DNA from: a virus | Strand: one strand, 5' to 3' | Virus record (IMG/VR): IMGVR_UViG_3300025652_000126 | Span: 1 to 47,764 of that record | Length of the DNA: 47,764 bases | Part shown: positions 3,812 to 43,404 of the stretch, piece after piece | How positions within the stretch are numbered: the stretch's first letter is position 1 | Layout: every line of letters starts with the position of its first letter | Notes under the pieces: model-generated | Database searches by the model: none | Told to the model about the DNA's origin: nothing | The model's input: only the letters and a program-made list of their open reading frames with translations | Program-made: the position numbers and the translations under genes

Positions 3812-4242
3812 TGGGATTTAAACTAGGTAAAGGTAGAACACCAGTAGCGGTAAACGGGCAAATATCAAAGAAAATGAGATTTGGTCAAGAAGCTGGAGAT
3901 GCTGACGTGTCTGTACCTGGAACACCTGTTATTAGAAAAACACTAGAGCCTGGTATTATGGGTGAAGCTAATATGGATGGTAGCATCTACATTAGCAATA
4001 AAATACAGCCTGGCAGTGATATAGAAAAACAAGTGATCAACCACGAAATGAGACACTCTACAGATATGAAAACTGGTAAGCTAGAGTATGGTGATGATTA
4101 CGTTAAATGGAATGGTAATACTTACCCAAGACAAACTATCAACGGTAAAGATATGATAATAGTTGATGGTGTAGCTAAAGAGGCTGGAGACGGTGGATTT
4201 CCTTGGGAAAGAGAAGCAAACAACGGAAACGCGTATGGTTAA
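3811..4242 (+). CDS. Small HExxH putative metallopeptidase
   Basis: A 143-residue protein with a zincin-type motif: His78-Glu79-Met-Arg-His82 within a helix-like segment (QVINHEMRHSTDM), and a downstream PWEREAN at 131-137 that could supply a third Glu ligand as in gluzincins. The N-terminal part is glycine- and lysine-rich (GFKLGKGRTPVAVNG). There is no signal peptide or membrane segment. It overlaps the preceding gene by one base and the next by eight. Possible roles are maturation of a virion protein, or a virion-associated peptidase that attacks host material. The motif is visible; enzyme activity is inference, because short HExxH matches can occur by chance. Confidence 0.6.
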   Translation: MGFKLGKGRTPVAVNGQISKKMRFGQEAGDADVSVPGTPVIRKTLEPGIMGEANMDGSIYISNKIQPGSDIEKQVINHEMRHSTDMKTGKLEYGDDYVKWNGNTYPRQTINGKDMIIVDGVAKEAGDGGFPWEREANNGNAYG

Positions 4243-5736: not shown

Positions 5737-5938
5737 AATCACAATAGGGAAAGACTACAAAATTGACTCCATGCACTATTCTGTTAATCAGGAAGTGTAT
5801 GGTGGTCATACTATTTGTGATATAATAGAAGAAGACGACAAATACTCTATATACATTAGAAAAGGAAAAGACGTATTGCCTTGGAAAGACTTCAATAAAA
5901 ACATGGCCGTATCTGTTGAGTATAACTTAGAATATTAG
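5717..5938 (+). CDS. Small conserved-type phage protein, function unknown
   Basis: A 73-residue protein with a mostly beta pattern: KITIGKDYKIDSMHYSVNQ, then HTICDIIEEDDKYSIYI and a closing KDFNKNMAVSVEYNLEY. No recognised domain. The reading frame starts inside the end of the coiled-coil gene and its stop overlaps the next gene's GTG start as TAGTG, so the three genes are likely to be co-translated. The size and strand pattern suggest a small beta-barrel, perhaps a partner of the adjacent GroES-like protein, but this is inference from position alone. Confidence 0.6.
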   Translation: MSKLIRKITIGKDYKIDSMHYSVNQEVYGGHTICDIIEEDDKYSIYIRKGKDVLPWKDFNKNMAVSVEYNLEY

Positions 5939-6519
5939 TGAAAGCACCATTTGATTTTGTTATTGAGCCTAAAGGCGAAAGATACAACAATTCTAAAAAA
6001 GTTGGAGATAAAGATCTTATTTTAAATACTGAGATATTTAATCATCAATACGTAAACAGGAGTGCTATTGTTAACGCTGTGCCCACTGCTTTTGAAACTA
6101 AAATAAAAGTAGGCGATGAGGTTATAGTACATCACAACGTGTTTAGAAGGTGGCACGACCAACAAGGTAATGAAAAAAATAGCAGAAGTTATTTTGATGA
6201 AAATACTTATCTAGTTAAAGAAGATCAAATATTTCTTTATAAATCAAAAGATAAGTGGAAAGCTTGCAATGGGTATTGTTTTGTTCAGCCGATTAAGCAA
6301 AGAAACAAATTATCAGAAGATGTTGAAGAGCAGTGTATTGGTATTGTTAAATATACCGATGGCAAAAACACAATAGGCGAGCTTGTAGGTTTTACACCTT
6401 TCTCTACGTACGAGTTTGTTGTTGACGGCGTCAAGCTTTATAGAGTTTTAAATAAGTTTATTACAATTAAATATGAATATCAAGGAGACGAAAAAGAGTA
6501 TAATCCAAGCTGGGCATAG
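5938..6519 (+). CDS. Putative tandem GroES-like (double Cpn10-fold) protein
   Basis: The 193 residues read as two related halves. The first runs from FDFVIEPKGER to VKEDQIFLYK and contains IVNAVP and KVGDEVIVHHNVFR, the order of strands and the KxGDxV turn typical of the GroES barrel. The second starts again with CFVQPIKQRNK and has IGIVKYTDG, ELVGFTPFS and a closing LNKFITIKYEY. The inserted hydrophilic loop after VHHNVFR (RWHDQQGNEKNSRS) resembles a dome-loop extension. GTG is taken as start: there is no other start in the frame upstream and no later ATG. It may be a second co-chaperonin used with the window's GroEL or the host's. Assignment is by pattern, not by search. Confidence 0.55.
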   Translation: MKAPFDFVIEPKGERYNNSKKVGDKDLILNTEIFNHQYVNRSAIVNAVPTAFETKIKVGDEVIVHHNVFRRWHDQQGNEKNSRSYFDENTYLVKEDQIFLYKSKDKWKACNGYCFVQPIKQRNKLSEDVEEQCIGIVKYTDGKNTIGELVGFTPFSTYEFVVDGVKLYRVLNKFITIKYEYQGDEKEYNPSWA

Positions 6520-6748
6520 AGCAGTTGAAGAGCTTATTAAAGTAGCTAAAGAAGCTATTGTTGATAGTGGTGATGATATTACAGCTGATAGACTTAAAAA
6601 CGCAGCTGCTACAAAGAAGTTAGCTATATTCGATGCTTTTGAAATACTTAATCGCATCCAAGAAGAAGAAGCTATGCTCAGCGGTAAAGAGCCAGAAAAA
6701 AAGGAAGAGCGAATATTTAAGGGATTTGCTGAAGGAAGATCTAAATGA
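6473..6748 (+). CDS. Candidate terminase small subunit
   Basis: A 91-residue, mostly helical, charged protein directly before the large terminase gene, with the stop overlapping that start as ATGA. Segments: KSIIQAGHRAVEELIKVAKEAI, then DDITADRLKNAAATKKLAIFDAF and a Glu/Lys-rich tail. The position and size fit a DNA-recognition subunit of the packaging motor. No helix-turn-helix is obvious by eye, so it could also be another small packaging factor. It overlaps the upstream gene by 47 bases; there is no later ATG before residue 67, so the early start is kept. Confidence 0.5.
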   Translation: MNIKETKKSIIQAGHRAVEELIKVAKEAIVDSGDDITADRLKNAAATKKLAIFDAFEILNRIQEEEAMLSGKEPEKKEERIFKGFAEGRSK

Positions 6749-8965: not shown

Positions 8966-11389
8966 ATGGCAGAGTCTGTTGTAAAGAGTTATTTTCCAAG
9001 TCAAGTAGTTAGCGATGCTGAAAAGTTAAGTTATGACTACGGGTTAAAAGTTGCGAAAGCAATAGAAACAGAGTGGTTCCATAATGATAGAAATCACAAT
9101 AGGTATCAAAACAACCTTAATGACTTTCACAAGTTAAGACTGTATGCTAGAGGAGAGCAATCAGTTCAAAAATATAAAGACGAGTTATCAATAAATGGAG
9201 ACTTATCTTATTTAAACTTAGACTGGACACCTGTTCCAATAATCCCTAAGTTTGTTGATATTGTAGTTAACGGTATAGCTGATAGAGCTTTTGAAATAAA
9301 AGCTTACTCACAAGACGAGTATGGAGTTTCTAAGAGAACAGAATACATGCAGAGTATTCTTGATGATATGGCTGCTAAAGAAATGAATGACTTCGTGGCG
9401 GACGAGTTTGGAATCAACTTGTATCAAAACGATCCTGAAACTCTACCTGAAAATAATGAAGAGCTAGAGCTGCACATGCAGTTAAACTACAAGCAAGCCG
9501 TAGAAATAGCTGAAGAGCAAGCTTTAAACGTTTTGCTTGAAGGTAATAATTACGACTTAATAAAGAAAAGGCTATACTACGACTTAACAGTATTAGGTAT
9601 TGGCGCTGTTAAAACTGATTTCACTACGTCTGAAGGCGTTACTATAGACTACGTTGATCCAGCTGACCTTGTTTATTCCTACACTGAGTCACCATATTTC
9701 GATGACATATACTATGTTGGAGAGGTTAAGACGATACCTATTAACGAGCTTGCTAAGCAGTTTCCTTACCTAACGCAAGAAGACTTAGAAGAAATACAAC
9801 AGTCTGGCTATGCTCAAACAAACTCTTATCAAAGCGGGCCTAGATACGAAGAGTCTGACAACAATAAAGTTCAAGTTTTATATTTTAATTATAAAACACA
9901 TATGAACGAGGTTTACAAAGTAAAAGAAACTGGAAGTGGAGCTGACAAGCTTATAGAAAAAGATGATAGCTTTAATCCACCTGAAGGCGTTGAAGGTAAT
10001 TTCTCAAAGCTTGAAAGGGCTATTGAAACATTGTATGAAGGAGCTTTGATACTTGGCACTAACAAGTTGCTAAAGTGGGAGATGTCTGACAACATGATGA
10101 GATCTAAGAGTAATTTTACAAAAGTTAAAATGAACTACAGCATCGTTGCGCCTCGCATGTATAAAGGTCGCATAGAATCTTTAGTTAAGCGTATAACTGG
10201 TTTTGCTGATATGATTCAGCTTACTCATTTAAAATTACAACAAGTAATGTCGCGAATGGTTCCAGACGGCGTTTATTTAGATGCCGATGGTTTAGCAGAA
10301 GTTGATTTAGGTAACGGCACAAACTACAATCCACAAGAAGCTTTAAACATGTTCTTCCAAACAGGTTCTGTTATTGGTAGATCATTTACAAGTGAAGGCG
10401 ATATGAATCCTGGTAAAGTACCTATTCAAGAAATAACATCTGGATCAGGAGGCAACAAGATAAATGCTTTAATAGGTAATTACAACTATTACCTACAGAT
10501 GATACGTGATGTAACCGGGCTTAACGAAGCGCGTGATGGTAGTACGCCTGATGAAAGGGCTTTAGTTGGTATTCAAAAAATGGCCGCTGCAAACAGCAAT
10601 ACAGCTACGCGACATATATTAGATTCAGGTTTATTTTTAACAGCTGAAACAGCGGAAAAGCTTTCGCTTCGTATATCTGACATTATAGAATATTCTCCTA
10701 CAAAAGAAGCTTTTATACAAAGCATAGGTGTACACAATGTTGCTACGCTAAAAGAAATGTCTGAACTTCATTTGTATGACTTTGGTATATTTTTAGATTT
10801 AGCTCCAGACGAAGAACAAAAAGCTTTATTAGAAAATAACATACAACAAGCGTTAGCTCAGAAAACTATAGATATAGAAGACGCTATAGATCTTAGAGAT
10901 ATATCTAATATTAAAGTAGCTAATCAACTGCTAAAACTTAGAAGAAATAAAAAACAACAACAAGATCAACAAGCGCAACAGCAGAATATACAAGCTCAAG
11001 CTCAAGCTAATGTTCAACAGCAGCAAGCTGCCGCTCAACTAGAAATTCAAAAACAACAAGCTTTAAAGCAGGCTGAGGCTCAATTATTGCAAATGCAGTC
11101 TCAATTAGATGCTGGTAAAATGCAAGCTGAAACACAAATGAAAGCACAATTAGCTGCTCAGAAGTTTCAGTACGACATGCAACTAAAATCTTTAGAGTCT
11201 AGCGTGCTAAAAGATAGAGAAAAAACCAAAGAAGACAGAAAAGACGAAAGAACTAAAATACAAGCCACTCAACAGTCAGAAATGATTGATCAAAGAAAAT
11301 CAGGTAAACCACCTAAAAACTTTGAGCAAACGAGTAATGATATACTTGAAGGTGGATTTGATTTAGGACCTATTGATCTTAACAGATAA
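8966..11389 (+). CDS. Portal protein
   Basis: Dodecameric vertex channel through which DNA is packaged and ejected; 807 residues. Assigned from size, position between TerL and capsid genes, and typical segments: an N-terminal alpha/beta region with WTPVPIIPKFVDIVVNGIADRAF, a DPADLVYSYTESP strand region, and a helical stem and crown with IQLTHLKLQQVM and NEARDGSTPDERALVG. The last 170 residues are Gln/Ala-rich coiled coil (QQQDQQAQQQ and QAEAQLLQMQSQLDAGK) ending in a basic segment and a short polar tail. Such Gln-rich C-terminal barrels occur in podovirus portals, including those of crAss-like phages. Confidence 0.85.
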   Translation: MAESVVKSYFPSQVVSDAEKLSYDYGLKVAKAIETEWFHNDRNHNRYQNNLNDFHKLRLYARGEQSVQKYKDELSINGDLSYLNLDWTPVPIIPKFVDIVVNGIADRAFEIKAYSQDEYGVSKRTEYMQSILDDMAAKEMNDFVADEFGINLYQNDPETLPENNEELELHMQLNYKQAVEIAEEQALNVLLEGNNYDLIKKRLYYDLTVLGIGAVKTDFTTSEGVTIDYVDPADLVYSYTESPYFDDIYYVGEVKTIPINELAKQFPYLTQEDLEEIQQSGYAQTNSYQSGPRYEESDNNKVQVLYFNYKTHMNEVYKVKETGSGADKLIEKDDSFNPPEGVEGNFSKLERAIETLYEGALILGTNKLLKWEMSDNMMRSKSNFTKVKMNYSIVAPRMYKGRIESLVKRITGFADMIQLTHLKLQQVMSRMVPDGVYLDADGLAEVDLGNGTNYNPQEALNMFFQTGSVIGRSFTSEGDMNPGKVPIQEITSGSGGNKINALIGNYNYYLQMIRDVTGLNEARDGSTPDERALVGIQKMAAANSNTATRHILDSGLFLTAETAEKLSLRISDIIEYSPTKEAFIQSIGVHNVATLKEMSELHLYDFGIFLDLAPDEEQKALLENNIQQALAQKTIDIEDAIDLRDISNIKVANQLLKLRRNKKQQQDQQAQQQNIQAQAQANVQQQQAAAQLEIQKQQALKQAEAQLLQMQSQLDAGKMQAETQMKAQLAAQKFQYDMQLKSLESSVLKDREKTKEDRKDERTKIQATQQSEMIDQRKSGKPPKNFEQTSNDILEGGFDLGPIDLNR

Positions 11390-11410
11390 CACTAACTTAT
11401 ATTTTATATT

Positions 11411-12604
11411 ATGGAAGAAAATGAAAACGTAGTTGAAGAAACTACACAAGAACAAGCTGTAGAAACAGTTGATGAAAGTAAGTTTGAAAGCGCTGGCGAT
11501 GACAGTGTAATCAAAATAGATTTAGACAAACCAATTGAAGATGAAAAACCAGAAGAAACAACAGAAGCTGCAGATGGCCCAGCTGACGACACAGGAGTGG
11601 TTGGAAGCGATGAAAGTGCCGACGCCACACCGGAACAAGAAGAAGTACAGCCGGAAGCCGAAGCACAAGACACAGTACTAGAAGAAGTAACTGAAGAAGA
11701 GGTAAAAGAAGAAGTTGAGCAGGTTACAGAAGAAGTAGAAGAAGCTATAGCTGAAGCTAAAGAGACTGGAAAACCATTACCAGAAAACGTTCAAAAGTTA
11801 GTTGACTTTATGAACGATACGGGTGGTGATATAGAAGACTATGTCAAGTTAAACAAAGATTATTCAAGTCTAGACAACTTAAGTCTTTTAAAAGAATACT
11901 ATAAGCAAACTAAACCTCATCTAGACTTAGAAGAAATAAACTTCATGATGGAAGATCAATTTGCATTTGATGAAGAACTAGACGAGGAAAGAGATATAAA
12001 AAGAAAGAAATTAGCTTTGAAGGAGCAAGTTGCTCAAGCAAAGAACCACTTGGAAAGTGTAAAATCCAAATACTATGAAGACATCAAGTATGGCTCTAAG
12101 TTGACACAAGATCAGCAAAAAGCCGTTGATTTCTTTAATAGATATAACAAGGAGTCGGAAGACAACAGGAAAGTAGCTGAAAAACAGCAAAGAACGTTTT
12201 TAAACAAGACTAGTCAATTATTCAACAAAGACTTCAAAGGTTTTGAATACAATGTTGGAGATAAAAAGTACAGGTTTAATGTTAAGAACGCTGACGCTGT
12301 TAAAGATACTCAAAGCGATATTAATAACTTCATAGGAAAGTTTCTTAATGAAAGTAATGAAATACAAGATGCTAAGGGTTATCACAAAGGTTTATTCACA
12401 GCTATGAACGCTGACGCTGTAGCGCAGCACTTTTATGAGCAAGGTAAAGCAGACGCTTTAAAACAAAGTGTAGCTAAATCTAAAAACGTTAACATGAACC
12501 CACGTCAACAATTCGGCGGAGTTCCTAATAACAGCGGTATGAAAGTTAAAGTGCTAGGTGATAATTCTTCTGATTTTAAGTTTAAAATTAAAAACAGAAA
12601 ATAA
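11411..12604 (+). CDS. Acidic scaffold-like head assembly protein
   Basis: Sits between portal and major capsid genes, the usual place of a scaffolding or head-assembly protein. Of its 397 residues, the first 130 are extremely Glu/Asp-rich and low in complexity, the middle (LSLLKEYYKQTKPHLDLEEI, KKLALKEQVAQAKNHLESVK) is helical and coiled-coil-like, and the C-terminus is basic (DFKFKIKNRK). An acidic body with a basic C-terminal end that could bind the inside of the capsid is the classical scaffold design. No protease motif is visible. The start ATG follows an A+T-rich leader. Confidence 0.7.
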   Translation: MEENENVVEETTQEQAVETVDESKFESAGDDSVIKIDLDKPIEDEKPEETTEAADGPADDTGVVGSDESADATPEQEEVQPEAEAQDTVLEEVTEEEVKEEVEQVTEEVEEAIAEAKETGKPLPENVQKLVDFMNDTGGDIEDYVKLNKDYSSLDNLSLLKEYYKQTKPHLDLEEINFMMEDQFAFDEELDEERDIKRKKLALKEQVAQAKNHLESVKSKYYEDIKYGSKLTQDQQKAVDFFNRYNKESEDNRKVAEKQQRTFLNKTSQLFNKDFKGFEYNVGDKKYRFNVKNADAVKDTQSDINNFIGKFLNESNEIQDAKGYHKGLFTAMNADAVAQHFYEQGKADALKQSVAKSKNVNMNPRQQFGGVPNNSGMKVKVLGDNSSDFKFKIKNRK

Positions 12605-30918: not shown

Positions 30919-33900
30919 ATGTTTGAAATAAATGGCAAAAGTTATTCAATAGAACAACTACAAGACGCTGCTAACAGACAGGGTGTTGACTTTGGTTTGT
31001 ATTTAGAAAAAATGAAAGAGCAAGGCCTTGTGGAAAAGCAAGTCGGCTTACCGCAAGACCCGACGGCGAGCCAAGAAGATATGGGGTCGCAATTGGACGA
31101 TGGTTCATCGGAATCAGTAAGTTGGTTTGATCAAACATGGTTTGGTAGAGGTTTTAGAGCTGCAAGCACTACAGGTGAAGCCACAGATCTTATGGCTGAA
31201 AACTTTTCTAACGTTGACATAGAAAAAGTTAGAGATTTTATAGCTGCTAAAGAAGATGAAGCTAAAAACTACGTTCCTTCTGAGCGTATGCAAAAATTTC
31301 AAAAACAATATGTCAAAGAAGGCAAGACGTGGTCTGCTTTTTTTAGAGGCGTAAAAAATCAACCTGGTTTATTACCAGAGCTTTTCGTACAATCGTTAGG
31401 TACTCAAGTAGGTACAGCTTTTGACGCGCCTGAATCATTAGCCGCCGCAGGTACTGGTGCAATTGCTGGTGCCGCTATTGGAGCAGCGCCTGGCGCTATT
31501 GCTGGAGCTATGGGTGGATTAGCAACGTCTATGGAAGCTGCTTTAACTTTTGGTGAGCTTATCGAAAAAGAATTAAAGCTAGAAGGTAAAGAGTTTACTG
31601 ATGAAAATATTAAAGCGTTACTAGAAGGACCAAAAGGACAAAAAATAAGAAATAGATCTATTGGTAGAGGCCTTGCTATCGGCTCAATAGAAGGTCTTAC
31701 AGGAGGTTTAGCTGGTAAAGTAGCTGCTACTACCAAACAAGTTGTAAAAGGCGCTAGAAAATCAACTCTTGCAGCCGCTACTACAGGTACAACTGTTGAA
31801 GCTGTAGGTGGTGGTGCTGGTGAGGTTGCGGGTAGAGTTGCTGCAGGTCAAGATATGGACGCTGCAGAAATAGGTTTTGAAGCTATAACAGGTACTGTAA
31901 CTGCACCGGTAAACGTAGGATATGCTTTGGCTACAGCAAAAGCACCAGTATACAAGATTAACGGTGAGACTGTTACTTACGAGCAAGTGAAAGATTTTGT
32001 TGATACAGCTGACGATGTTGACGTTGCTACCGCCGATATTCAAATGGAAAACGACTTTACTGGTTTAGGTAAAAAAGCTACAGCTAAACAAGAAGCTGCT
32101 AGAGCAGGTATTGCGCTCTCAGGTGACGTAGAAACTATAGGTTTAGTAGACGAAGCCATTGCTGAGAAAGACTACAAAGCTAATATGGAGTTTGCTAAAA
32201 AGCATAGCAAATTGTACGGGCTAGACTTTACAGAGCTTACTCAAGAGCAGATGGAACAAAGATTTCCAGATAAAACATCTAAAGAATTATCAGAAACACC
32301 AGGCACTATTTTAGATAGTGAAATAGTAATAAATAAAGACGCTGCTAAAAAGAAATTGTATGGCGATAACGCTGGTAACCATGAGCTGCTACACGGTATA
32401 ATAAAAGCTAGCGGTCAAAAAGGTAGAATAACTGATAAAACTATATCTGAATTTTTAAATATTATAGGCGAAGAAAACGCGGGTTTAATTCAAAAAAGAA
32501 TTGATGAAAACTACGGTCAAGACTATATGTCTGAACATAGAGACGAATATTTTACTATATTTTCAGATCTTATTGCCAACGAAGAGGTTAAGTTTAACGA
32601 TAGCGTATTTACAAAAATACAAGACTTTGTAAGAAGATTATTTGCAAATCTTGGCCTTGCCGACGTTGATTTTACAAGTGGTAAAGGTGCCTATAACTTT
32701 TTAAAAGATTATAATAAAAGTATACACAAAGGCGCCTTAAGCAAAGGCGTTACTAAAGCCACTAAGGGTGATGTAACTTTTGACGAAGCACAGTTTTCTA
32801 GAGTATACCAAGAAGTTGAAGCTTTAAAAGAAGATCTTATAGATCCTGAAACTAAAGAAAGCACAGCGTTTATAGCGGCTGACACTTTAAAAAATGAAGT
32901 TGACAGAATTTTACCTACTATAGAAGGTATAACAAAAGAAGATAGAGCCGACATAGTACAAAACTTTGTTACATCAGAAAGAGGTTTATTTGGGTTACTT
33001 AAAAAATATAATCCAAATAGAAACGATAGTATAATGGGTTATTTAAACTCAACAACTCCTGCTGGCAAGCTGCTACAGGCTAGACTTCAAGAGTTTTATA
33101 AAGATAACCCTAGGTTTGGTAATATATTCCAGACTACAACTGATGAAGCTGTGGCTTCTAAAGTTGAAAAACAAACAGCTATAATTGATACAGATTCTTC
33201 TCAGCAAGCTGAACAAAAAAGAACTAAAATAGATATACTTGACTTTGCTGAAACAAGAAAAGTTTCTGACAAAATAAAATCTACTGTAAAAGTAAAAGAA
33301 GGTGATAACTTTAAAGATATATCTTCTAAGTATGCTGGCAAAGTAGGTGAGATGATATTTAATGTTCCTGCTAAAAAAATAATGGAAGGAGGTGCAAATT
33401 TAGTGCCTACAACTAAAGTTAAAGAAGGTATGGCTTTACCTTCTGAAGCTTTAAATATACAAAGAGTTTTTAGCGCTGAGCAAAACTTAAGCAACTTTGT
33501 CAAAACATTACCGCTTTACAATGTTTCTGAGCCTACAGCTGAAATAAACAAAGCTGGAGAAAGTATAGACGTTTCAAGAGATACTTATGGCATTGCTATA
33601 GGACTAAAAGGATTACCTTTAGATTATTTTTATGAAGATTTTACAGATCCTTCTGGTGTTATGACATCTCCGTCTGGTAGAAGTAGAGGTTTAAAGTCTC
33701 AAACCCCAGTTAAAAAACTAAAGCAAAAGTTTGTAAACCCTACTAAAGAAGTTGTAGATCAACTTAAAAAAGATATAGGTATAACTCCAGCTGGTCAGCA
33801 AAACTTATACGATAGAAATATAGGCCAGTTATTAAAAGGTCTTGCTAAAGTTTATTCTATCAACGCTTCTTTATCAGCTGCTCAAAGAAATCAAGAGGCT

Positions 33901-36900
33901 AAACTAAAAGACGCGACGCCTCAAGAAGCTAAAGCTATAAAACAACAAACAGCTGACATTACAGCTGCTCAGAGTAAGGCTGCGTTTAGTAAGTCAGTTA
34001 AGGATGTAATAAGCATTAAATCTTTGTTTGAATTAGAAACTAAAGGTATTGATAAGCTACTAAATAGCTTAGGTGTTGATCCTACATTTAAACTTACAAA
34101 AGAAGAAGGTAGAGAAGGTTTTATTAAAGCTATACAAGAAGAGCTATTACCATTAATGCCTAGAGCTTTTTGGTTTGGACCTGACAGCACTGTGTTTACA
34201 GCTAGCAATAAAACGTACGGTCTCAGCATGTCAACAACTGACGGCAAAAGAAAGAATAAAAATAATGAGTATAAAAAACCAGAAGAAGCTAAAGCTTACA
34301 ACGACTTTAGAGATAGACTTAAGGCTTTAAGTAAACTACCTGACAGCTCTTTTGGTAAACCTATAATCGTAGATGGCAAAGAAATAGATTTTAGCATATC
34401 TAGCTACGATACTATGTTTAGCGATGTTGCTAAGATAAAAAAGAAAATTAAAAACGGTGACATTAAAGCTTGGAACGAAAAAGTTGGTTTAATACACAGA
34501 GAAATGTGGTCAAGATTTAACAAAGCTATAAACAAAGGTGGTCAAGTTAATTCTAAAACTGCAGCTGCTATTGGAACATACTTAAAGCTTGTTGGTAGTG
34601 ACACTAACCACTGGCATAAGCTTGGAGCTCAATTTGCTGGTTATTCAAAAGCAATAACTGGAACTAGATTTGAATATGAACACGCTATGCCTGCAACAGC
34701 CGCGTATCTATACCTGATGGATGCTGCTATTGGTGATTCTAACTTTAAAGCTTCTTACGATTTAGTTATAGAAAACTATAAGCTTATATCGCTAGATAAA
34801 GCTATGGACAAAAAACTAACATCAGTAGGTCTTCAAAGACGTATGCCCGTAGGCTGGGATTTAATAGAAAATAATTGGTGGAACAGATACTTCAATAGCG
34901 ATGTATCTAAAGTTAGTGGTGGTATAAGCCCTAACTCACTAATAACTATAGACGGAAAAACGTTTGGACAAGAGTTTCAAGTTAACGCAGAAGGTAAGTC
35001 AATAGCATTAAAAGACAACGCTAGCAGAACAGTTAAGTTTAGCAAAGCTATTACAAACGCTAGATCTTCTAGTAGTGAAACAAAATCACGAGGTATGTCT
35101 ACGTTTGACTTTGATGAAACGCTAATTATTGATGGTAAAAACTTTGTTACAGCAACTAAGGGTGATGATGTAGTAAAAATACCTTCTGACAAATGGCCAA
35201 TAGATGGTCCTACCTATGCTCAAGAAGGTTATACTTTTGACTTTTCTGACTTTGCAAATGTAAGAGGCGGCAAACAAGGTCCGCTACTACAAAAGATGAA
35301 AAACCAAATACGTAAGTACGGCCCTAGCAACGTGTTTGTTTTAACAGCTCGTATGCAAGAAGCGGCAGGACCTATACATAAATGGCTTCAAAGTCAAGGT
35401 ATAAATATACCTTTAGAAAATATCACTGGATTAGGTAGAAGTGAAGGCGACGCTAAAGCGCAGTGGTTTGTAGAAAAATACGCTGAAGGTTATAATGACA
35501 TGTACTTCGTTGATGATGCGTTACCAAACGTTAAAGCTGTTAAGCATGTCTTTGATCAGCTAGATATTAAAGGTAAGTCTGTTCAAGCTAAAATGCAGTT
35601 TAGCAAGTCTATGGACGATAGATTTAATAGCATACTCGAAGAGGTTAAAAATATAGATGCTAATAAAAGATTTTCAGAGTCTAAGGCTAGGAAAAGAGGT
35701 AAAGGCGAAGGTAGATTTAGATATTTTATACCGCCTTCACACGAAGATTTTGTAGGCTTACTCTACAACTTTATGGGTAAAGGCAAAAGAGGTAATCAGC
35801 ACAGAGACTTTTTTGAAAAATCTTTAATACAACCTTTGAATAGAGCGTACAGGGAGTTAAACTCTGCCAAGCAAGCTATATCAAACGACTACAAGGCTCT
35901 ATTAAAGCAATACCCAGGCATGAGAAAAAGGTTAACAACTAAAACTCCTGATGGTGATTACTTATTATCTGATGCAGTAAGAGTTTATCTTTGGAGTAAG
36001 TTTGATCTTGATATACCTGGCATGACTAAAACAGATAAAGCTGATTTAGCTAGAGTTGTTTTAAACGACAAAGATTTACTTACATTTGCTGAGTCTTTAG
36101 CTGTAATATCTAGAGTTGAAGAAGGTTATGTTAAACCAGGCGAAAGCTGGGAAATTGGTGATATAACTACAGATCTACAAGACGCTACTGGTCGAGTGGG
36201 TAGAGGTAAGTTTTTTCAAGAGTTTATAGAAAACGCTGATATTATATTTTCTACAGAAAACTTAAATAAAATTGAAGCTGCTTATGGTACTAATTTTAGA
36301 GAAGCTTTAGAAGATGTTCTTTATAGAACTAAAAACGGAACTAACAGACCTACAGGTAAAAATAGGCTGGTTAATAGATTTTTAGACTACATAAACGGTT
36401 CTGTAGGCGCTACAATGTTCTTTAACTCTAGATCTGCGGTGCTACAGCAATTATCTATGGTTAACTTCTTAAACTACGGAGACAACAACATATTTAAAGC
36501 CGCTGTGGCTTTTGGTAATCAAAAACAGTTTTGGGCAGATTATGTTACTATATTTAACTCTGACATGCTAAAGCAAAGAAGAGCTGGCAGAGCATTTGAT
36601 CTTAATGCTAATGAAATAGCTGCTCAAGTTTCAAAGTCTAAACAGCCTATTAGAGCTTTAATAAAGTACTTGTTAAATCTAGGGTTTACACCAACGCAGC
36701 TAGCAGATAGTAACGCTATAGCTTTAGGTGGTGCAACGTTTTATAGAAATAGAATTAAAACATACTTAAGCCAAGGGCTTTCTGAACAAGAGGCTCAAGC
36801 TAAAGCTTTTGACGACTTTCAAGAAATAGCAGAAGCAACACAGCAGTCAGCAAGACCTGATATGTTAAGCCAACAACAAGCGTCTCCGTTAGGTAGAGTA

Positions 36901-37662
36901 ATATTAGCGTTTCAAAACACGCCGTCTCAGTACGCTAGATTAATTAAAAAAGCAGGTTTAGATTTAATAAACAGAAGAAAAGCGCCTGGTTATACTACTC
37001 AATGGCAAAGCGATATGTCTAACATATCAAGAATAATGTATTACACAGCCGTTCAAAACGCTATATTCTATACTTTGCAGACAGGTTTGTTTGCGATGAT
37101 GTTTAGTGATGATCCGCAAGACGAAGAGTTTTTTGCCAAAAAAAGAGATAGAATTTTAAACGGAACTATAGACAGTATACTTAGAGGCTCAGGCGTTGGT
37201 GGCGCTGTTATATCTACTATTAAGAACGCTGCTATTAAAATGCACGAGCAAAACAAGTTAGAGTCTTGGCAAAAAGAAGACAATGCTTTAATGATGGAGC
37301 TATTACAATTATCACCGCCGATAGGTATTAAAGCAAGAAAACTACGATCAGCTGAAAGAGAACTAATATTTAACGCTAAAGAAATAGAAGAAACCAGCCT
37401 GCTAGATATAAACAATCCTATCTATACAGCCGGAGCTTTAGCCGTAGAAGCTACTACAAACTTACCTACAGCTAGAGCGCAAACAAAATCACAAAACATT
37501 GAAGATGCTATGAATAATGAATTTACTTGGTGGCAAAGATTAGCTATGGGTCTTGGTTGGAGTAAGTGGAACTTAGGCGCTACTGAAAAAGAGCTTGAAG
37601 TAGAAAAGAAAAGATCTAGAAAATCATCTAGAGGCCGCGGAAGTAGAAGTAGAAGTAGATAG
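30919..37662 (+). CDS. Giant polyvalent-type virion protein with HExxH and HAD domains
   Basis: A 2247-residue protein, probably packaged and ejected into the host with the DNA. Seen in order: a short N-terminal domain; Gly/Ala-rich hydrophobic segments at about 173-205 and 250-265 that could insert into a membrane; a zincin motif His488-Glu-Leu-Leu-His492 with EHRDEYF downstream; long helical regions; a HAD-type phosphohydrolase domain at about 1395-1555 with DFDET (Asp1397, Asp1399), Thr1476 in VLTAR, Lys1513 and Asp1532-Asp1533 in FVDDA; then a helical C-terminal region with a hydrophobic stretch near 2045-2062 and an Arg/Ser tail. Segments beginning FSK or FSR separate domains. This agrees with phage polyvalent proteins that carry several effector domains. 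Substrates are unknown. Confidence 0.8.
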   Translation: MFEINGKSYSIEQLQDAANRQGVDFGLYLEKMKEQGLVEKQVGLPQDPTASQEDMGSQLDDGSSESVSWFDQTWFGRGFRAASTTGEATDLMAENFSNVDIEKVRDFIAAKEDEAKNYVPSERMQKFQKQYVKEGKTWSAFFRGVKNQPGLLPELFVQSLGTQVGTAFDAPESLAAAGTGAIAGAAIGAAPGAIAGAMGGLATSMEAALTFGELIEKELKLEGKEFTDENIKALLEGPKGQKIRNRSIGRGLAIGSIEGLTGGLAGKVAATTKQVVKGARKSTLAAATTGTTVEAVGGGAGEVAGRVAAGQDMDAAEIGFEAITGTVTAPVNVGYALATAKAPVYKINGETVTYEQVKDFVDTADDVDVATADIQMENDFTGLGKKATAKQEAARAGIALSGDVETIGLVDEAIAEKDYKANMEFAKKHSKLYGLDFTELTQEQMEQRFPDKTSKELSETPGTILDSEIVINKDAAKKKLYGDNAGNHELLHGIIKASGQKGRITDKTISEFLNIIGEENAGLIQKRIDENYGQDYMSEHRDEYFTIFSDLIANEEVKFNDSVFTKIQDFVRRLFANLGLADVDFTSGKGAYNFLKDYNKSIHKGALSKGVTKATKGDVTFDEAQFSRVYQEVEALKEDLIDPETKESTAFIAADTLKNEVDRILPTIEGITKEDRADIVQNFVTSERGLFGLLKKYNPNRNDSIMGYLNSTTPAGKLLQARLQEFYKDNPRFGNIFQTTTDEAVASKVEKQTAIIDTDSSQQAEQKRTKIDILDFAETRKVSDKIKSTVKVKEGDNFKDISSKYAGKVGEMIFNVPAKKIMEGGANLVPTTKVKEGMALPSEALNIQRVFSAEQNLSNFVKTLPLYNVSEPTAEINKAGESIDVSRDTYGIAIGLKGLPLDYFYEDFTDPSGVMTSPSGRSRGLKSQTPVKKLKQKFVNPTKEVVDQLKKDIGITPAGQQNLYDRNIGQLLKGLAKVYSINASLSAAQRNQEAKLKDATPQEAKAIKQQTADITAAQSKAAFSKSVKDVISIKSLFELETKGIDKLLNSLGVDPTFKLTKEEGREGFIKAIQEELLPLMPRAFWFGPDSTVFTASNKTYGLSMSTTDGKRKNKNNEYKKPEEAKAYNDFRDRLKALSKLPDSSFGKPIIVDGKEIDFSISSYDTMFSDVAKIKKKIKNGDIKAWNEKVGLIHREMWSRFNKAINKGGQVNSKTAAAIGTYLKLVGSDTNHWHKLGAQFAGYSKAITGTRFEYEHAMPATAAYLYLMDAAIGDSNFKASYDLVIENYKLISLDKAMDKKLTSVGLQRRMPVGWDLIENNWWNRYFNSDVSKVSGGISPNSLITIDGKTFGQEFQVNAEGKSIALKDNASRTVKFSKAITNARSSSSETKSRGMSTFDFDETLIIDGKNFVTATKGDDVVKIPSDKWPIDGPTYAQEGYTFDFSDFANVRGGKQGPLLQKMKNQIRKYGPSNVFVLTARMQEAAGPIHKWLQSQGINIPLENITGLGRSEGDAKAQWFVEKYAEGYNDMYFVDDALPNVKAVKHVFDQLDIKGKSVQAKMQFSKSMDDRFNSILEEVKNIDANKRFSESKARKRGKGEGRFRYFIPPSHEDFVGLLYNFMGKGKRGNQHRDFFEKSLIQPLNRAYRELNSAKQAISNDYKALLKQYPGMRKRLTTKTPDGDYLLSDAVRVYLWSKFDLDIPGMTKTDKADLARVVLNDKDLLTFAESLAVISRVEEGYVKPGESWEIGDITTDLQDATGRVGRGKFFQEFIENADIIFSTENLNKIEAAYGTNFREALEDVLYRTKNGTNRPTGKNRLVNRFLDYINGSVGATMFFNSRSAVLQQLSMVNFLNYGDNNIFKAAVAFGNQKQFWADYVTIFNSDMLKQRRAGRAFDLNANEIAAQVSKSKQPIRALIKYLLNLGFTPTQLADSNAIALGGATFYRNRIKTYLSQGLSEQEAQAKAFDDFQEIAEATQQSARPDMLSQQQASPLGRVILAFQNTPSQYARLIKKAGLDLINRRKAPGYTTQWQSDMSNISRIMYYTAVQNAIFYTLQTGLFAMMFSDDPQDEEFFAKKRDRILNGTIDSILRGSGVGGAVISTIKNAAIKMHEQNKLESWQKEDNALMMELLQLSPPIGIKARKLRSAERELIFNAKEIEETSLLDINNPIYTAGALAVEATTNLPTARAQTKSQNIEDAMNNEFTWWQRLAMGLGWSKWNLGATEKELEVEKKRSRKSSRGRGSRSRSR

Positions 37663-37698: not shown

Positions 37699-38058
37699 AT
37701 GGCTTATATCCAAAAAAACAATCCACTTGCAGTTACTTCTTGCGGCAGACGCAGGGCTGGAGGTATAGGCTCTGGCTTTAAGATGTCAGAAGAAGATTCG
37801 CCAATGCAAAAGCGGTTGAGAAAAACAACTAAGGGTAAAGGTAGAAACTTTAGAACAGCCAAGGAAGGCGCTGGCATGACTTCTAAGGGAGTTAAAGAGT
37901 ATAGACGCAAAAACCCAGGTAGTAAGCTAAAAACAGCTGTTACAGGCAAAGTTAAACCTGGCAGCAAAGCAGCTAAGCGTAGAAAATCATTTTGCGCAAG
38001 ATCAAAAGGTTGGACTGGCGAAAGAGGTAAAGCTGCTAGACGTAGATGGAAATGTTAA
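37699..38058 (+). CDS. Small basic protein, DUF6321-like
   Basis: A 119-residue, very Lys/Arg-rich protein. The C-terminal half (GVKEYRRKNPGSKLKTAVTG, KPGSKAAKRRKSFCARSKGW, ending ARRRWKC) matches a motif known to me from cyanophage and giant-virus proteins and named DUF6321. The two Cys and conserved Trp/Arg suggest a small DNA- or capsid-associated fold. It starts the block of small genes after the giant virion protein. A nucleic-acid-binding role inside the capsid is inferred from charge. The family name is from memory and was not searched. Confidence 0.7.
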   Translation: MAYIQKNNPLAVTSCGRRRAGGIGSGFKMSEEDSPMQKRLRKTTKGKGRNFRTAKEGAGMTSKGVKEYRRKNPGSKLKTAVTGKVKPGSKAAKRRKSFCARSKGWTGERGKAARRRWKC

Positions 38059-38068
38059 AAATATAGAT

Positions 38069-38323
38069 ATGGGATACGTAAGTGCAGCACAAAGAAAAGC
38101 CGTGTGGGCTAGTAAAAAAGATGGTGGCAAAGGAAATCCAAATAAGAAAAGCCCTAACAAAGCGTTAGGTGTAAAAACAATTGGAGAAAAAAGCCCTATG
38201 CTAGGTAAAATTAGCGCTAGTTGTAAAGCTAGAGCTAAAAAGAAATTTAAAGTTTGGCCTAGTGCTTATGCTTCAGGTTGGGGTGTAAGATGTACTAGAG
38301 GAGATTTTAAAAAGAAAAAGTAA
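38069..38323 (+). CDS. Small basic Cys/Trp-motif protein
   Basis: An 84-residue basic protein. The C-terminal motif CKARAKKKFKVWPSAYASGW, then GVRCTR, is a recurring small domain in large marine phages and giant viruses, often beside the other two basic domains of this block. Ends in Lys-rich KKKK. Its stop overlaps the next start as TAATG, so translation is likely coupled to the phosphatase gene. No enzymatic motif. Probably a DNA-associated or virion protein; the two Cys might bind metal but only one pair is present. Confidence 0.65.
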   Translation: MGYVSAAQRKAVWASKKDGGKGNPNKKSPNKALGVKTIGEKSPMLGKISASCKARAKKKFKVWPSAYASGWGVRCTRGDFKKKK

Positions 38324-38865
38324 TGTTTAAGGACTTTGACATATCTTCATTCAAAAAGATGAAGCCACCAGGCGACAATACTTTTGATACGATGCAAGAG
38401 ATCAAAGAACTTGAAAGCATACCGCTAAACAAAAAGTTTGTGAAAGACAACGATGACATTGAGGCTGCTTTTAAAAAAACAGCTAAAGACAGCGGTGTTA
38501 AAGATTATGATTCTAAGGTTGCAGCAAAACTCATAACTGACTCTGCACCTATTATAATAGAGTTAAAAAAACATTTCAACAGACCAAGACCTAAAACTAT
38601 AGCTAAAAAAATGAATATCAATATGAAAGATATTGAAATGGAATCAATGAAAACACCATCGTACCCATCAGGACACTCAGTGCAAGGCATATTAATAGCT
38701 AAAGCTCTTGGTGATAAATACCCTAAAGCTAAATCAGCCTTTAATAAAACCGGCGAAAATATATCTTATAGTAGACGGGTTGCTCATGCGCACTATAAGT
38801 CAGATAGTAAAATGGGCGAGAAATTAGGTAACTCAATGTATAAACACATTAAAAACAAAATTTAA
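38323..38865 (+). CDS. PAP2-family (acid-phosphatase-like) phosphatase
   Basis: A 180-residue protein with all three motifs of the PAP2/class A acid phosphatase superfamily: K-x6-R-P at Lys82-Arg89-Pro90 (KKHFNRPRP), PSGH at 115-118, and S-R-x5-H-x3-D at Ser150 to Asp161 (SRRVAHAHYKSD). His118 is the expected acid and His157 the nucleophile. Unlike most members it has neither signal peptide nor membrane spans, so it would act in the cytoplasm or the virion on a soluble phosphoester. It lies inside the block of small basic genes. Likely substrates (nucleotides, inositol- or lipid-type phosphates) cannot be chosen from the sequence. Confidence 0.85.
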   Translation: MFKDFDISSFKKMKPPGDNTFDTMQEIKELESIPLNKKFVKDNDDIEAAFKKTAKDSGVKDYDSKVAAKLITDSAPIIIELKKHFNRPRPKTIAKKMNINMKDIEMESMKTPSYPSGHSVQGILIAKALGDKYPKAKSAFNKTGENISYSRRVAHAHYKSDSKMGEKLGNSMYKHIKNKI

Positions 38866-38866
38866 A

Positions 38867-39118
38867 ATGAAAAAAGCACCTGCAAAAATGAAAAAAGGTC
38901 CAATGAAAATGGCTAAAAAGTCGCCTGCAAAATTAAACAAAGGTTTTGAAGCTCTTCCAAAAAACGTTCAAGCTAAAATCAAAAAAGAGTCAGACTCTGT
39001 AGCTAAGATGAAAAAGTCTGCAATGAAGATGAAAAAGGAGTCTATGGCTATGATGAAAAAAGCTGCGATGAAAATGAAAAAAGTTTCAGCTATGAAAATG
39101 AAAATGAAGAAAAAGTAA
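38867..39118 (+). CDS. Lys/Met-rich low-complexity protein
   Basis: An 83-residue protein of which by hand count about 30 residues are Lys and 15 Met. It is built from short units such as MKKAPAKMKKGP, SAMKMKKES and AAMKMKK, flanking a less repetitive centre (GFEALPKNVQAKIKKESDS). Strongly basic, like histone H1-like and phage core proteins. The gene starts one base after the phosphatase stop and its stop directly abuts the next start. A DNA-condensing role in the virion or the cell is likely from composition only; metal binding by the many Met is an alternative. Confidence 0.6.
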   Translation: MKKAPAKMKKGPMKMAKKSPAKLNKGFEALPKNVQAKIKKESDSVAKMKKSAMKMKKESMAMMKKAAMKMKKVSAMKMKMKKK

Positions 39119-39487
39119 ATGTACGACATTAAGTCTAAGTTTAAGAGTAGTCCACTGCCTTGTTGGAGCGGTTACGAAAGAGTACCTGGAACTGCCGAAG
39201 GTAGCAAAGGTAGCTGTCGTAAGTCTTCGCCTGCAACTAAAAAGCAAAAAGGCGGTGGCACTCGAAAAACTTGTTTACCTGCAGCTAAAATAGCTAGCAT
39301 GAGCAAGAAGGAAAGACAAAGACTTGTAAGCGCTAAACAAAAATCTGGTAAAGCTGGAAAATACAAAAGGTCTTCAAAAACTAACGTAAAAGGAGCTCGT
39401 AAAAAAGGAGCTACACTAAGAGATTGGTTTAAAAAAGAAGACTGGAGACAGGTTAACAACCCCAGCAAAAAATGTGGTGAGAAATAA
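39119..39487 (+). CDS. Small basic protein, DUF5872-like
   Basis: A 122-residue basic protein. The N-terminus has LPCWSGYERVPGT; the C-terminal two thirds read TRKTCLPAAKIASMSKKERQ, then KAGKYKRSSKTNVKGARKKG and LRDWFKKEDWRQV, ending in PSKKCGEK. This ordered set matches the DUF5872 motif that I associate with giant-virus and large-phage proteins. Start abuts the stop of the Lys/Met-rich gene and its stop overlaps the next start. With the two other basic Cys/Trp-motif proteins it forms a set that may bind DNA in the virion. Name from memory. Confidence 0.7.
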   Translation: MYDIKSKFKSSPLPCWSGYERVPGTAEGSKGSCRKSSPATKKQKGGGTRKTCLPAAKIASMSKKERQRLVSAKQKSGKAGKYKRSSKTNVKGARKKGATLRDWFKKEDWRQVNNPSKKCGEK

Positions 39488-39762
39488 TGGCTAAAGAATT
39501 AAACGAAAATACTAGTTTTAAAATTAGTATACAGACTCTAATAGGTATAGGATTTGGTATGGCAACTATTATAAGCATGTGGTTTGTTTTACAAGCTGAC
39601 ATTGCTGAAGCTAAAGAACTTCCAAAACCAGATATAACTCGCATGGAGTTTAACATGAAAGACGAAAACATACGTAATACTATTATAGAAACTAGAGATG
39701 ACGTCAAGAAGTTAGAAGAGCGTATGATACGTATGGAAGATAAAATCGATGCGCTAAAATAA
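39487..39762 (+). CDS. Single-span membrane protein with coiled coil
   Basis: A 91-residue protein: a short polar N-terminus, a hydrophobic segment at about residues 14-35 (IQTLIGIGFGMATIISMWFV), a linker with KELPKPD, then a charged coiled-coil helix (RNTIIETRDDVKKLEERMIR) to the C-terminus. Probably anchored in the inner membrane with the helix in the periplasm. Size and layout resemble inner-membrane spanins or holin accessory proteins; without an outer spanin this is a guess. It begins the chain of envelope-directed genes and overlaps the next gene as TAATG. Confidence 0.65.
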   Translation: MAKELNENTSFKISIQTLIGIGFGMATIISMWFVLQADIAEAKELPKPDITRMEFNMKDENIRNTIIETRDDVKKLEERMIRMEDKIDALK

Positions 39763-40085
39763 TGAAAGCGCTACTAACTACAATACTGCTTTTAATTTGT
39801 GCTACGGCCTATTGTCAAATTGAAGCGGTTCACTTTAACGCCGGCTGGAACGACGCCAACGACGTTGAGTGGTTTTCTAAAATAAAAGACTGCGATACTA
39901 AAAGCTTGTTGATAGAAGATGACAACAATCAAGGCGAATATGAGATCGCAATAGTACCAACAATAGTAATATTTGATGATGGAGAAGAAGTTAAAAGATT
40001 TCAAGCAGACCTTAGTTTCAAAATGGTTGCAACTAAAGAAGAAGTTAAAGAATATATTGAAGAACTTATAATAAGCAAATTTTAA
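39762..40085 (+). CDS. Secreted thioredoxin-fold protein without CxxC
   Basis: A 107-residue protein with a signal peptide (MKALLTTILLLICATAYC, cleavage probably before Gln19). The mature part has a thioredoxin layout: AVHFNAGWNDANDVEWF, where thioredoxins have a strand then WCGPC, a DCDTKSLLIE strand, the cis-proline loop IVPTIVIF with Pro66, DDGEEVKRFQ, and a closing helix. The CxxC pair is missing (replaced by WNDAN); the only mature Cys is Cys44, so it cannot act as a disulfide oxidoreductase. It would work in the periplasm as a binding or scaffold protein, or as an inhibitor of host redox folding. Overlaps both neighbours by one base. Confidence 0.7.
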   Translation: MKALLTTILLLICATAYCQIEAVHFNAGWNDANDVEWFSKIKDCDTKSLLIEDDNNQGEYEIAIVPTIVIFDDGEEVKRFQADLSFKMVATKEEVKEYIEELIISKF

Positions 40086-41890
40086 TGAAATATTTAATCA
40101 CACTATTATTATGTGTTAATATAGCGTTTGCGCAATGCCCTAACGGCACGTACGTAAATATAATTATTAATCCTGACCAATATCCAGAAGAAACTTCTTG
40201 GGCTATTATATCATTGCTAGAAGATACTATTGTTACTGGCGGACCTTATGAAGATATTGTAGATTACCAGCCGCAGGTTATTCAAGTGTGTATACCTAAT
40301 GGAGAGTATTTGTTTAGTATATCTGATTTATATGGTGATGGTGTAGCTGGTAGTATATGGGGTGGACAAGATGGATCATACTACGTAGTTCACTGTGGTG
40401 ATACTATAGTACAGCCGGACTCTGCTAACTTTGGATTTGCTGCATTTCACGGGTTTACACTAGAAGACTGCGCGCCACCACCACCTGTTTTTGGTTGCAT
40501 GAACGAGATGTATGTAGAGTTTTTACCTGAAGCCACTGTAGATACAGGCATGTGCTTTACAGAAAAATTATTTGGCTGTACTGATATAGAAGCTTTTAAT
40601 TACGACAGTATGGCTAACACAGATATACTAACAGATAGCTGCTCTCATACGCTAGAATTAACAGATTTAGCTGGCAATGGTTGGGCTGGATCATATCTAC
40701 AGGTTTATCAAGGTTATAATTTTATAGGTGAGTTTACTTTAGAAGATGGTTTTGATACTACGTTTACTTTTAACTTAAGCATATCAGAGCCTGTAAGAGT
40801 ACAATTTAATATAACTCAACAATCAGATTTTACCGCGGTGCAATGTGGCTATATTCTTTATTCTGAGGAGCATGTTGCTATAGAAATAGAAGGTGGCTTT
40901 GTAAATCCAATACCACCATTTGTATTTTTATTTGCTGAGCTTGAGTGCGGTAACAACTGTATAGAAAAGACCTACGGTTGTATAGACGAAATAGCCTTAA
41001 ACTACAACGACAGTGTAAATACAGATGATGGCAGTTGCTATTATAATCCTGGTTGTACTAACCCTTTATATTTAGAATATGACGCAGCTTATGATTATGA
41101 TGACAGCTCGTGTGCTACACTTATCGCATACGGATGTATGGACTCTACAGCATTTAACTACGATCCATTGGCTAACGTTGAAATACCTGGCTCTTGTATT
41201 GCTATCGTAGAAGGCTGCATGGATGATGACGCCTTCAATTACAACATTAATGCTAATGTTGATGATGGAAGCTGTATACCTTTAATATTTGGATGTATTG
41301 ATCCTACGGCTTTCAACTACTGTGACACATGCAACACTGATAATGGAGGTTGTATACTAACTATTAACGGTTGTACTGATAGTACGGCATTAAATTATAA
41401 CGAAGTTGCAAACACTGATAATGGCTCTTGTATTTATCCGCTGCCTGGTTGTACTGATCCGACCGCTGTTAATTATAACGCAGAGGCTAACGTGCCAGAC
41501 TCTAGCTGCTATTATTCTGCTGATTGCTACGTTGGTGATATATACTACATTCCTAATGCTTGCTTTGAGTGGGTGATAGAAGTAGATCCATATTGCTGTG
41601 ACGATCAGTGGGATTATGCTTGTGACGATTTATACGCCTACTGCCAAGATGGTTGGACTGGACCTACTAGCGTAGAGTCTTTTAGTAGGCTAGGAGTTTT
41701 ACCTTACCCTAATCCTTCTACAGGTTTAGTAAGCTTTAACGCTGAGGTTGATGTGCGAGTGTATAGCATAGAAGGTAAACTTGTTTACGAAGCTGAAAGC
41801 ATTACACAATTAGAGTTAGACAAAGGATTTTACTTAGTTAAAATATCTAAAGATAACTTAAACATAACAACAAAGCTTATTGTACAATGA
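40085..41890 (+). CDS. Secreted GCTD-repeat protein with T9SS sorting domain
   Basis: A 601-residue protein carrying a signal peptide (MKYLITLLLCVNIAFA, cleaved before QC), a Cys-containing beta-domain (YPEETSWAIISL, later ISDLYGDGVAGS), nine repeats of type GCxDxxAxNYxxxAxxDxGSC from residue 137 to about 475 with a second beta-domain (LELTDLAGNGWAGSYLQVY) between repeats two and three, a Cys-rich segment, and at about 535-601 a type A T9SS C-terminal sorting domain: YPNPSTG at 541, RVYSIEGKLVYE, GFYLVKI and TTKLIVQ. Such proteins are exported by Sec, then passed through the outer membrane by the host T9SS and attached to the surface or released. Its placement in a phage late block is unusual. 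It may alter the surface of the infected cell or be released at lysis. Overlaps the next gene as ATGA. Confidence 0.9.
   Translation: MKYLITLLLCVNIAFAQCPNGTYVNIIINPDQYPEETSWAIISLLEDTIVTGGPYEDIVDYQPQVIQVCIPNGEYLFSISDLYGDGVAGSIWGGQDGSYYVVHCGDTIVQPDSANFGFAAFHGFTLEDCAPPPPVFGCMNEMYVEFLPEATVDTGMCFTEKLFGCTDIEAFNYDSMANTDILTDSCSHTLELTDLAGNGWAGSYLQVYQGYNFIGEFTLEDGFDTTFTFNLSISEPVRVQFNITQQSDFTAVQCGYILYSEEHVAIEIEGGFVNPIPPFVFLFAELECGNNCIEKTYGCIDEIALNYNDSVNTDDGSCYYNPGCTNPLYLEYDAAYDYDDSSCATLIAYGCMDSTAFNYDPLANVEIPGSCIAIVEGCMDDDAFNYNINANVDDGSCIPLIFGCIDPTAFNYCDTCNTDNGGCILTINGCTDSTALNYNEVANTDNGSCIYPLPGCTDPTAVNYNAEANVPDSSCYYSADCYVGDIYYIPNACFEWVIEVDPYCCDDQWDYACDDLYAYCQDGWTGPTSVESFSRLGVLPYPNPSTGLVSFNAEVDVRVYSIEGKLVYEAESITQLELDKGFYLVKISKDNLNITTKLIVQ
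40493..41509 (+). repeat. Nine GCTD-type Cys-rich protein repeats
   Basis: Units of about 21 residues begin with G-C-[TMI] and end with [GS]-[SG]-C or a variant; the clearest is GCTDSTALNYNEVANTDNGSC without its last residue. Seven units are nearly tandem at 40976-41509, and two more lie upstream at 40493 and about 40574. The Asp/Asn pattern at the centre and end could bind calcium. Similar arrays are common in secreted marine flavobacterial proteins. Confidence 0.85.
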
Positions 41891-42936: not shown

Positions 42937-43404
42937 ATGAAGTTAAAAGTATTAAGATTTAGCTCAGAGAAAGACTCAACTCACGGACTTCTTTTCGAGG
43001 AAAACGATTTAGGAAATAGGTTTCTGTGCTACACTTTAGAAGATGAAGCTAGAGCTTTGAAAGTAAAAGGTGAGACTAGAGTGCCTGCTGGGATTTATAA
43101 TGTAGAGCTAAGAAAAGAAGGTGGATTTCATGATAAATACAGTAGAAAATATCCTGGTGTACACCGTGGTATGCTTCACGTCGTTGATGTTCCTGGGTTT
43201 GAGTATATTCTTATACACACTGGAAATACTGACGAGCACACTGCTGGTTGTCTGCTTGTGGGCGACAGCCAAGAAAATAACCAATTGCTACCTGACGGTT
43301 TCATTGGCAAAAGCGTTAACGCGTATAAAAGAATTTATCCTTCTATTGCAAAAGCGATAGAGCAAGGACAAGAAGTAATAATAGAATATATAGATTTCGA
43401 CTAA
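42937..43404 (+). CDS. DUF5675-like protein, probable lysis-associated
   Basis: A 155-residue protein matching the pattern of DUF5675, a small phage family often next to lysis genes. Seen: FLCYTLEDEAR, RVPAGIYNVELRKEGGF, and the block ILIHTGNTDEHTAGCLLVG, with His94 and Cys105 in an H-x(10)-C arrangement reminiscent of L,D-transpeptidase-type peptidoglycan enzymes. No signal peptide is present, so a holin or other route would be needed to reach the cell wall. It ends the envelope-directed block. The family name is from memory; enzymatic activity is unproven. Confidence 0.7.
   Translation: MKLKVLRFSSEKDSTHGLLFEENDLGNRFLCYTLEDEARALKVKGETRVPAGIYNVELRKEGGFHDKYSRKYPGVHRGMLHVVDVPGFEYILIHTGNTDEHTAGCLLVGDSQENNQLLPDGFIGKSVNAYKRIYPSIAKAIEQGQEVIIEYIDFD

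Follow-up and report, generated by a model that had tools for sequence, protein, structure and literature searches.

The described enzymes closest to the protein analyzed here are the class A non-specific acid phosphatases (PhoN, PhoC and the E. blattae and P. aeruginosa enzymes), which are soluble and secreted or periplasmic. In acid phosphatases of the PAP2 fold, one histidine acts as the nucleophile and another as the acid/base, and the strict class A signature reads GSYPSGHT. Among the class A enzymes, PhoC is listed with 5'- and 3'-nucleoside monophosphates, i.e. phosphomonoesters, as substrates (PMC8475336). Our literature search found no paper on such a PAP2 enzyme in phages; some of the papers that it returned used the name for a giant-virus domain or for a phage.

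The window, which is the complete stretch of DNA analyzed (a virus record of 47,764 bp), encodes a class A acid phosphatase-like PAP2 protein of 180 aa on the plus strand at 38323-38865. Its membership in the PAP2 superfamily is established by Pfam (PF01569, E=3.5e-7, 30.5 bits against a cut-off of 27.2), and all three motifs of the superfamily are intact: K82-X6-R89-P90, P115-S116-G117-H118 and S150-R151-X5-H157-X3-D161. In an alignment of 39 homologues, K82, R89, P90, S116, G117, H118, R151, H157 and D161 are invariant. The class A spacing (K-X6-RP-X12-54-PSGH-X31-54-SR-X5-H-X3-D) is found in the window protein and in 105 of the 115 distinct family members, and the remaining 10 have the same motif residues and deviate only in the PSGH-to-SR distance. 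As the catalytic set is complete, nothing in the sequence hints at a decoy. Furthermore, the gene evolves under purifying selection, with a dN/dS of 0.05-0.22 against the relatives compared. A search of PHROGs returned no family for this protein.

A sequence-only reading of this DNA had described a soluble PAP2 protein with intact motifs and with neither a signal peptide nor a membrane segment, and our analysis bears out this description. The ATG of the gene shares bases with the stop codon of the upstream gene (TAATG), and an in-frame stop is located shortly 5' of it, the open frame being 184 aa long. Hence, there is no space for a hidden N-terminal signal peptide. The window protein has no membrane segment and lacks the hydrophobic N-terminus of a secreted or periplasmic enzyme (the top 19-residue Kyte-Doolittle mean is 0.68), and no membrane or signal segment was seen among the 115 distinct family members, in which the same mean does not exceed 1.28. 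The solubility of the protein turned out, however, to be less exceptional than had been implied. Several distant proteobacterial homologues (encoded in the stretches L139-L145 and L149) also have no obvious signal peptide, so a soluble, non-exported PAP2 protein is uncommon but not unique to these phages. These proteins of Alphaproteobacteria and a few other bacteria share 'SGHSTQ' and 'HYxSDSxxG'-like stretches with the viral protein, but they are only about 24-32% identical to it, are longer and have other N-termini and other gene neighbours. A Peptidase_A4 gene (8416-9417 in L143) adjoins the Bradyrhizobium soluble PAP2 homologue, and a similar protein is encoded in L144 (7982-9457).

The AlphaFold model of the protein, made with 39 viral sequences, has a mean pLDDT of 96.2 and a pTM of 0.92. 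In a Foldseek comparison with the PDB, class A acid phosphatases, including that of P. aeruginosa, were the best matches (7f17/7f18, PhoC, the E. blattae enzyme and PhoN; TM ~0.7, probability 1.00), and membrane PAP2 enzymes and haloperoxidases ranked below them. A profile search gave E-values of 3e-12 for PhoN, 4.5e-4 for LpxE and 0.09 for a bromoperoxidase. The membrane PAP2 lipid phosphatases (LpxE, PgpB and the B. subtilis PgpP-type enzymes) share the core motifs with the viral protein, but their transmembrane helices are absent from it, and the structural match to LpxE is likewise weak (TM 0.62). With the class A enzymes, the viral protein has the fold, the catalytic residues and the solubility in common. 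In contrast to them, it has no signal peptide, is encoded by a virus and is linked to cationic proteins, and its 180 residues compare with ~210-230 in the matched class A structures, to which it is ~20% identical. It reads PSYPSGHS in place of the strict signature and scores 26.1 bits with the NCBIfam PhoC equivalog model, the cut-off of which is 430 bits. As it lacks the secretion feature, the signature and the PhoC score, we do not file the protein as a class A enzyme, although it is predicted to work like one. It represents a novel viral branch within a known fold, in an unusual gene setting, and not a typical secreted class A enzyme. The viral protein A0A1B1IV46 in BFVD (74% identity, TM 0.96) is a deposited member of the same family, and the tables consulted give neither a name nor a function for it.

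Sequence, model and fold match thus all support the soluble, non-exported phosphatase that had been proposed, its activity being a prediction. The best reading is that of an active phosphomonoesterase akin to the class A acid phosphatases. By analogy with the class A enzymes, His157 would be the nucleophile that forms a phosphohistidine intermediate and His118 the acid/base, and the phosphate would be held by K82, R89, S116, G117 and R151.

The family is found almost only in marine viruses of Bacteroidota-type hosts. Hundreds of viral contigs encode it (relatives are present on 479 viral-contig stretches), yet only three matches, all of them weak, turned up among 50,697 phage records. When 84,980 prokaryotic genomes were scanned, only 15 distant relatives with 24-34% identity emerged, none of which is from Bacteroidota by its record title. 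The tree unites the viral proteins in a single group apart from the cellular ones (support 99/99), and a long branch lies between the viral clade and the soluble bacterial homologues of L139-L145 and L149. With no close cellular homologue, and none of the 15 from Bacteroidota, a recent acquisition of the gene from a host was rejected. One contig (L027) has two divergent PAP2 genes at separate positions (6034-6564 and 11237-11767).

A Bacteroidota host of the window phage is indicated by the relatives of its terminase, which is 63% identical to that of the uncultured podovirus MW202828 and ~45% identical to those of Flavobacterium elemo phages, and by a window protein with a Por secretion tail. 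The latter (40085-41890) has 601 aa, apparently bears a signal peptide and contains Cys-rich 'GC.D..A.NY' repeats; its C-terminal sorting domain is of the Por secretion type. It is apparently exported via the host type IX system and has homologues in relatives. An apparently secreted thioredoxin-like protein with a weak Pfam match and no CxxC motif (39762-40085) is also present in relatives.

The sequence-only reading had placed the phosphatase among virion genes, which is true of the region, as the terminase, the portal and structural PHROGs are found upstream, but not of the immediate neighbours, which are small cationic proteins and not identified virion proteins. Five consecutive ORFs at 37699-39487 have a pI of 9.7-11.6, whereas most other ORFs of the window are acidic. 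All of them are on the plus strand. The gene w26 (37699-38058, pI 11.6) encodes a protein with a C-terminal DUF6321 module (Pfam E=1e-10) and is followed by w27 (38069-38323, pI 10.6), which has a 'KVWPSAYASG..RC' motif and the stop codon of which overlaps the PAP2 start. On the other side of the PAP2 gene are w29 (38867-39118, pI 10.7), which encodes a repetitive, Lys/Met-rich protein, and w30 (39119-39487, pI 10.5). Genes like w29 flank the PAP2 gene in relatives, and a relative of w27 in L163 matches DUF5872 weakly, below the cut-off. In the window, the cassette comes directly after the gene of a 2247-aa giant protein, inside a block with structural genes. Elsewhere it is found either in the same place or near GroEL/GroES and the terminase region, and in some genomes it sits between w5 and w6. 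The giant protein (30919-37662) has no Pfam match; it contains HELLH at residue 488 and the HAD-like motif DFDET at residue 1397, and looks like a polyvalent injected protein. A phage GroEL that is truncated by the end of the contig (1-1536), a GroES (1523-1780) and a second GroES-like protein (5938-6519) are encoded upstream of the terminase.

The cationic surroundings of the phosphatase are nearly constant. In relatives, 97% of the upstream and 96% of the downstream neighbours have a pI above 9.5, compared with 15% of the genes more than four genes away. Both immediate neighbours are above this value in 96 of the 103 PAP2 loci, whereas permutation of the gene order within each stretch gave an expectation of 15.7 such loci (sd 3.5) and at most 29. 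Of the w30 loci, 33 out of 78 show no PAP2 gene, in some cases because the stretch is truncated. The phosphatase is hence an optional member of the cassette, and the cationic proteins can do without it.

In four contigs (L164, which is the same contig as L127, L165, L166 and L167), the C-terminus of PAP2 is fused to w30. The three such fusions that are present in the tree occupy three separate places, and two of them have long branches. As adjacent in-frame genes fuse easily by the loss of a stop codon, these fusions support the compatibility of the two proteins more than they prove a complex. In one viral clade of 13 proteins (support 100/99), the N-terminus of PAP2 is fused to an HExxH zincin-like protein, which in the window is encoded by a separate gene (w6, 3811-4242, plus strand). 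The model of the fused protein consists of two folded parts (mean pLDDT 89, pTM 0.68), of which Foldseek matched only the PAP2 half among the matches listed. By sequence, the HExxH domain matched no solved structure, and in Pfam it gave only a sub-threshold M90 hint. In the L050 contig, which carries the fusion, the domain is found only in fused form. The HExxH protein is nevertheless present in all 23 of the 23 relative contigs that cover its region, so its presence alone says little, and it was rejected as a PAP2-specific partner. It is the cationic cassette, together with the fusions, that offers the best clues to the function of the phosphatase; the sequence-only reading contains neither. 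The near-constant adjacency and the repeated fusions argue that it probably works together with the small cationic proteins.

Where this joint work takes place can be proposed only tentatively. We favour, ahead of lysis and, after that, of free intracellular metabolism, a reading in which the phosphatase acts with its cationic partners in the particle or on the genome being packed or delivered, possibly as virion cargo. This reading draws on the fold, the motifs, the purifying selection, the cationic neighbours, the w30 fusions, the position in the structural block and the substrates of PhoC, as well as on the T4-like cyanophage S-N03, in which a DUF6321 module is also C-terminal, in a 500-aa protein encoded between the neck/terminase-small and the terminase-large genes. 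The phosphatase would be made in the cytoplasm, probably late to judge by its gene position, as a part of the tightly packed cassette, and would act where the cationic proteins act. These may bind polyanions in the particle or on the genome, and the phosphatase may strip phosphomonoesters (nucleotides or terminal phosphates) in the same compartment. What counts against this reading is that the cassettes of other relatives adjoin holin or endolysin genes and that PAP2 is not seen in 33 of the w30 loci, as described above. Possible too, with a distinctly lower probability, is a set of small, mostly Cys-containing cationic proteins, widespread among marine phages, whose optional phosphatase, sometimes fused to a cationic protein or an HExxH peptidase-like domain, acts on phosphorylated polyanions during packaging, delivery or exit. 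Genome ends, lipid A and other phospho-polymers would be the candidate targets. We found no earlier description of a phage accessory of this kind.

The idea of a lysis accessory arose from the two endolysin families and the holin-like genes found beside the cassette in several relatives. The phosphatase and the cationic, mostly Cys-containing proteins would be retained in the cytoplasm and would reach the envelope only once the holin has opened the inner membrane. There, the cationic proteins would disturb the outer membrane and the phosphatase would dephosphorylate lipid A or undecaprenyl or phospholipid carriers. Phages are known to use cationic peptides, the disruptins, to disrupt the outer membrane during lysis (PMC12819732). 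The cassette proteins are small and cationic like these peptides (archetype PhiKT), which is an analogy only. The cassette or the HExxH-PAP2 gene adjoins a holin-like gene in many relatives, and in others the cassette directly abuts an endolysin gene of the M15_3 or Amidase_2 family. A control count shows, however, that a lysis gene is present within 2 kb in 25 loci, compared with an expectation of 23.4 derived from other genes on these stretches. The adjacency, striking as it is in single loci, is not above expectation, and the linkage was rejected. In addition, the PAP2 enzymes that act on lipid phosphates are normally membrane proteins, whereas the viral one is soluble. We consider a role in lysis unlikely, if still the next choice after the particle or genome.

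Somewhat less likely again is that the phosphatase serves intracellular nucleotide or phosphate metabolism by dephosphorylating nucleotides, sugar phosphates or signalling nucleotides for salvage, takeover or counter-defence, which was the general idea of the sequence-only reading. A cytoplasmic location is expected for a protein without a signal peptide, and PhoC, a class A enzyme, cleaves 5'- and 3'-nucleoside monophosphates (PMC8475336). The gene, however, has cationic proteins as its neighbours and belongs to the structural half of the genome, outside the early and nucleotide-metabolism regions, and late hydrolysis of nucleotides would deprive the phage of precursors. The protein matched none of the PADLOC models and hence no known defence-system family. 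As class A PhoC is listed with phosphomonoesters, a direct cleavage of cyclic-nucleotide signals is unlikely, and counter-defence could work only via phosphomonoester substrates; an anti-defence role was rejected on these grounds. The salvage of phosphate from the environment fits a PAP2 protein without an export signal poorly, and secreted scavenging was likewise rejected. The recurrent fusions would also suit a catalytically minor PAP2 fold that serves the cationic proteins as a phosphate-binding scaffold. This is improbable, as a pure binder would not need the catalytic set, which is kept, including the nucleophile and the acid/base histidine, in 115 of 115 members. Least probable is a soluble vanadium-dependent haloperoxidase, which has the same fold, shares the superfamily residues and is matched weakly by Foldseek. 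The matched haloperoxidase chains have more than 400 residues, and acid phosphatases match far better both in Foldseek (E ~1e-5 compared with 1e-2) and in the profile search given above, so this identity was rejected by size and scores.

The near-constant cationic partners and the recurrent fusions offer a testable handle on the DUF6321 and DUF5872-like proteins. Of these, the DUF6321 module recurs in marine phages whose hosts belong to several phyla. It is small, basic and unusually similar between unrelated marine phages: among the matches listed, residues 50-119 of the window protein encoded at 37699-38058 are 54-79% identical to their counterparts in Pelagibacter, Synechococcus and Methylophilales phages. 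Also of note is a DUF5675 protein (42937-43404) with an L,D-transpeptidase-like HTGN...TAGC motif, which is a possible endolysin of the window phage.
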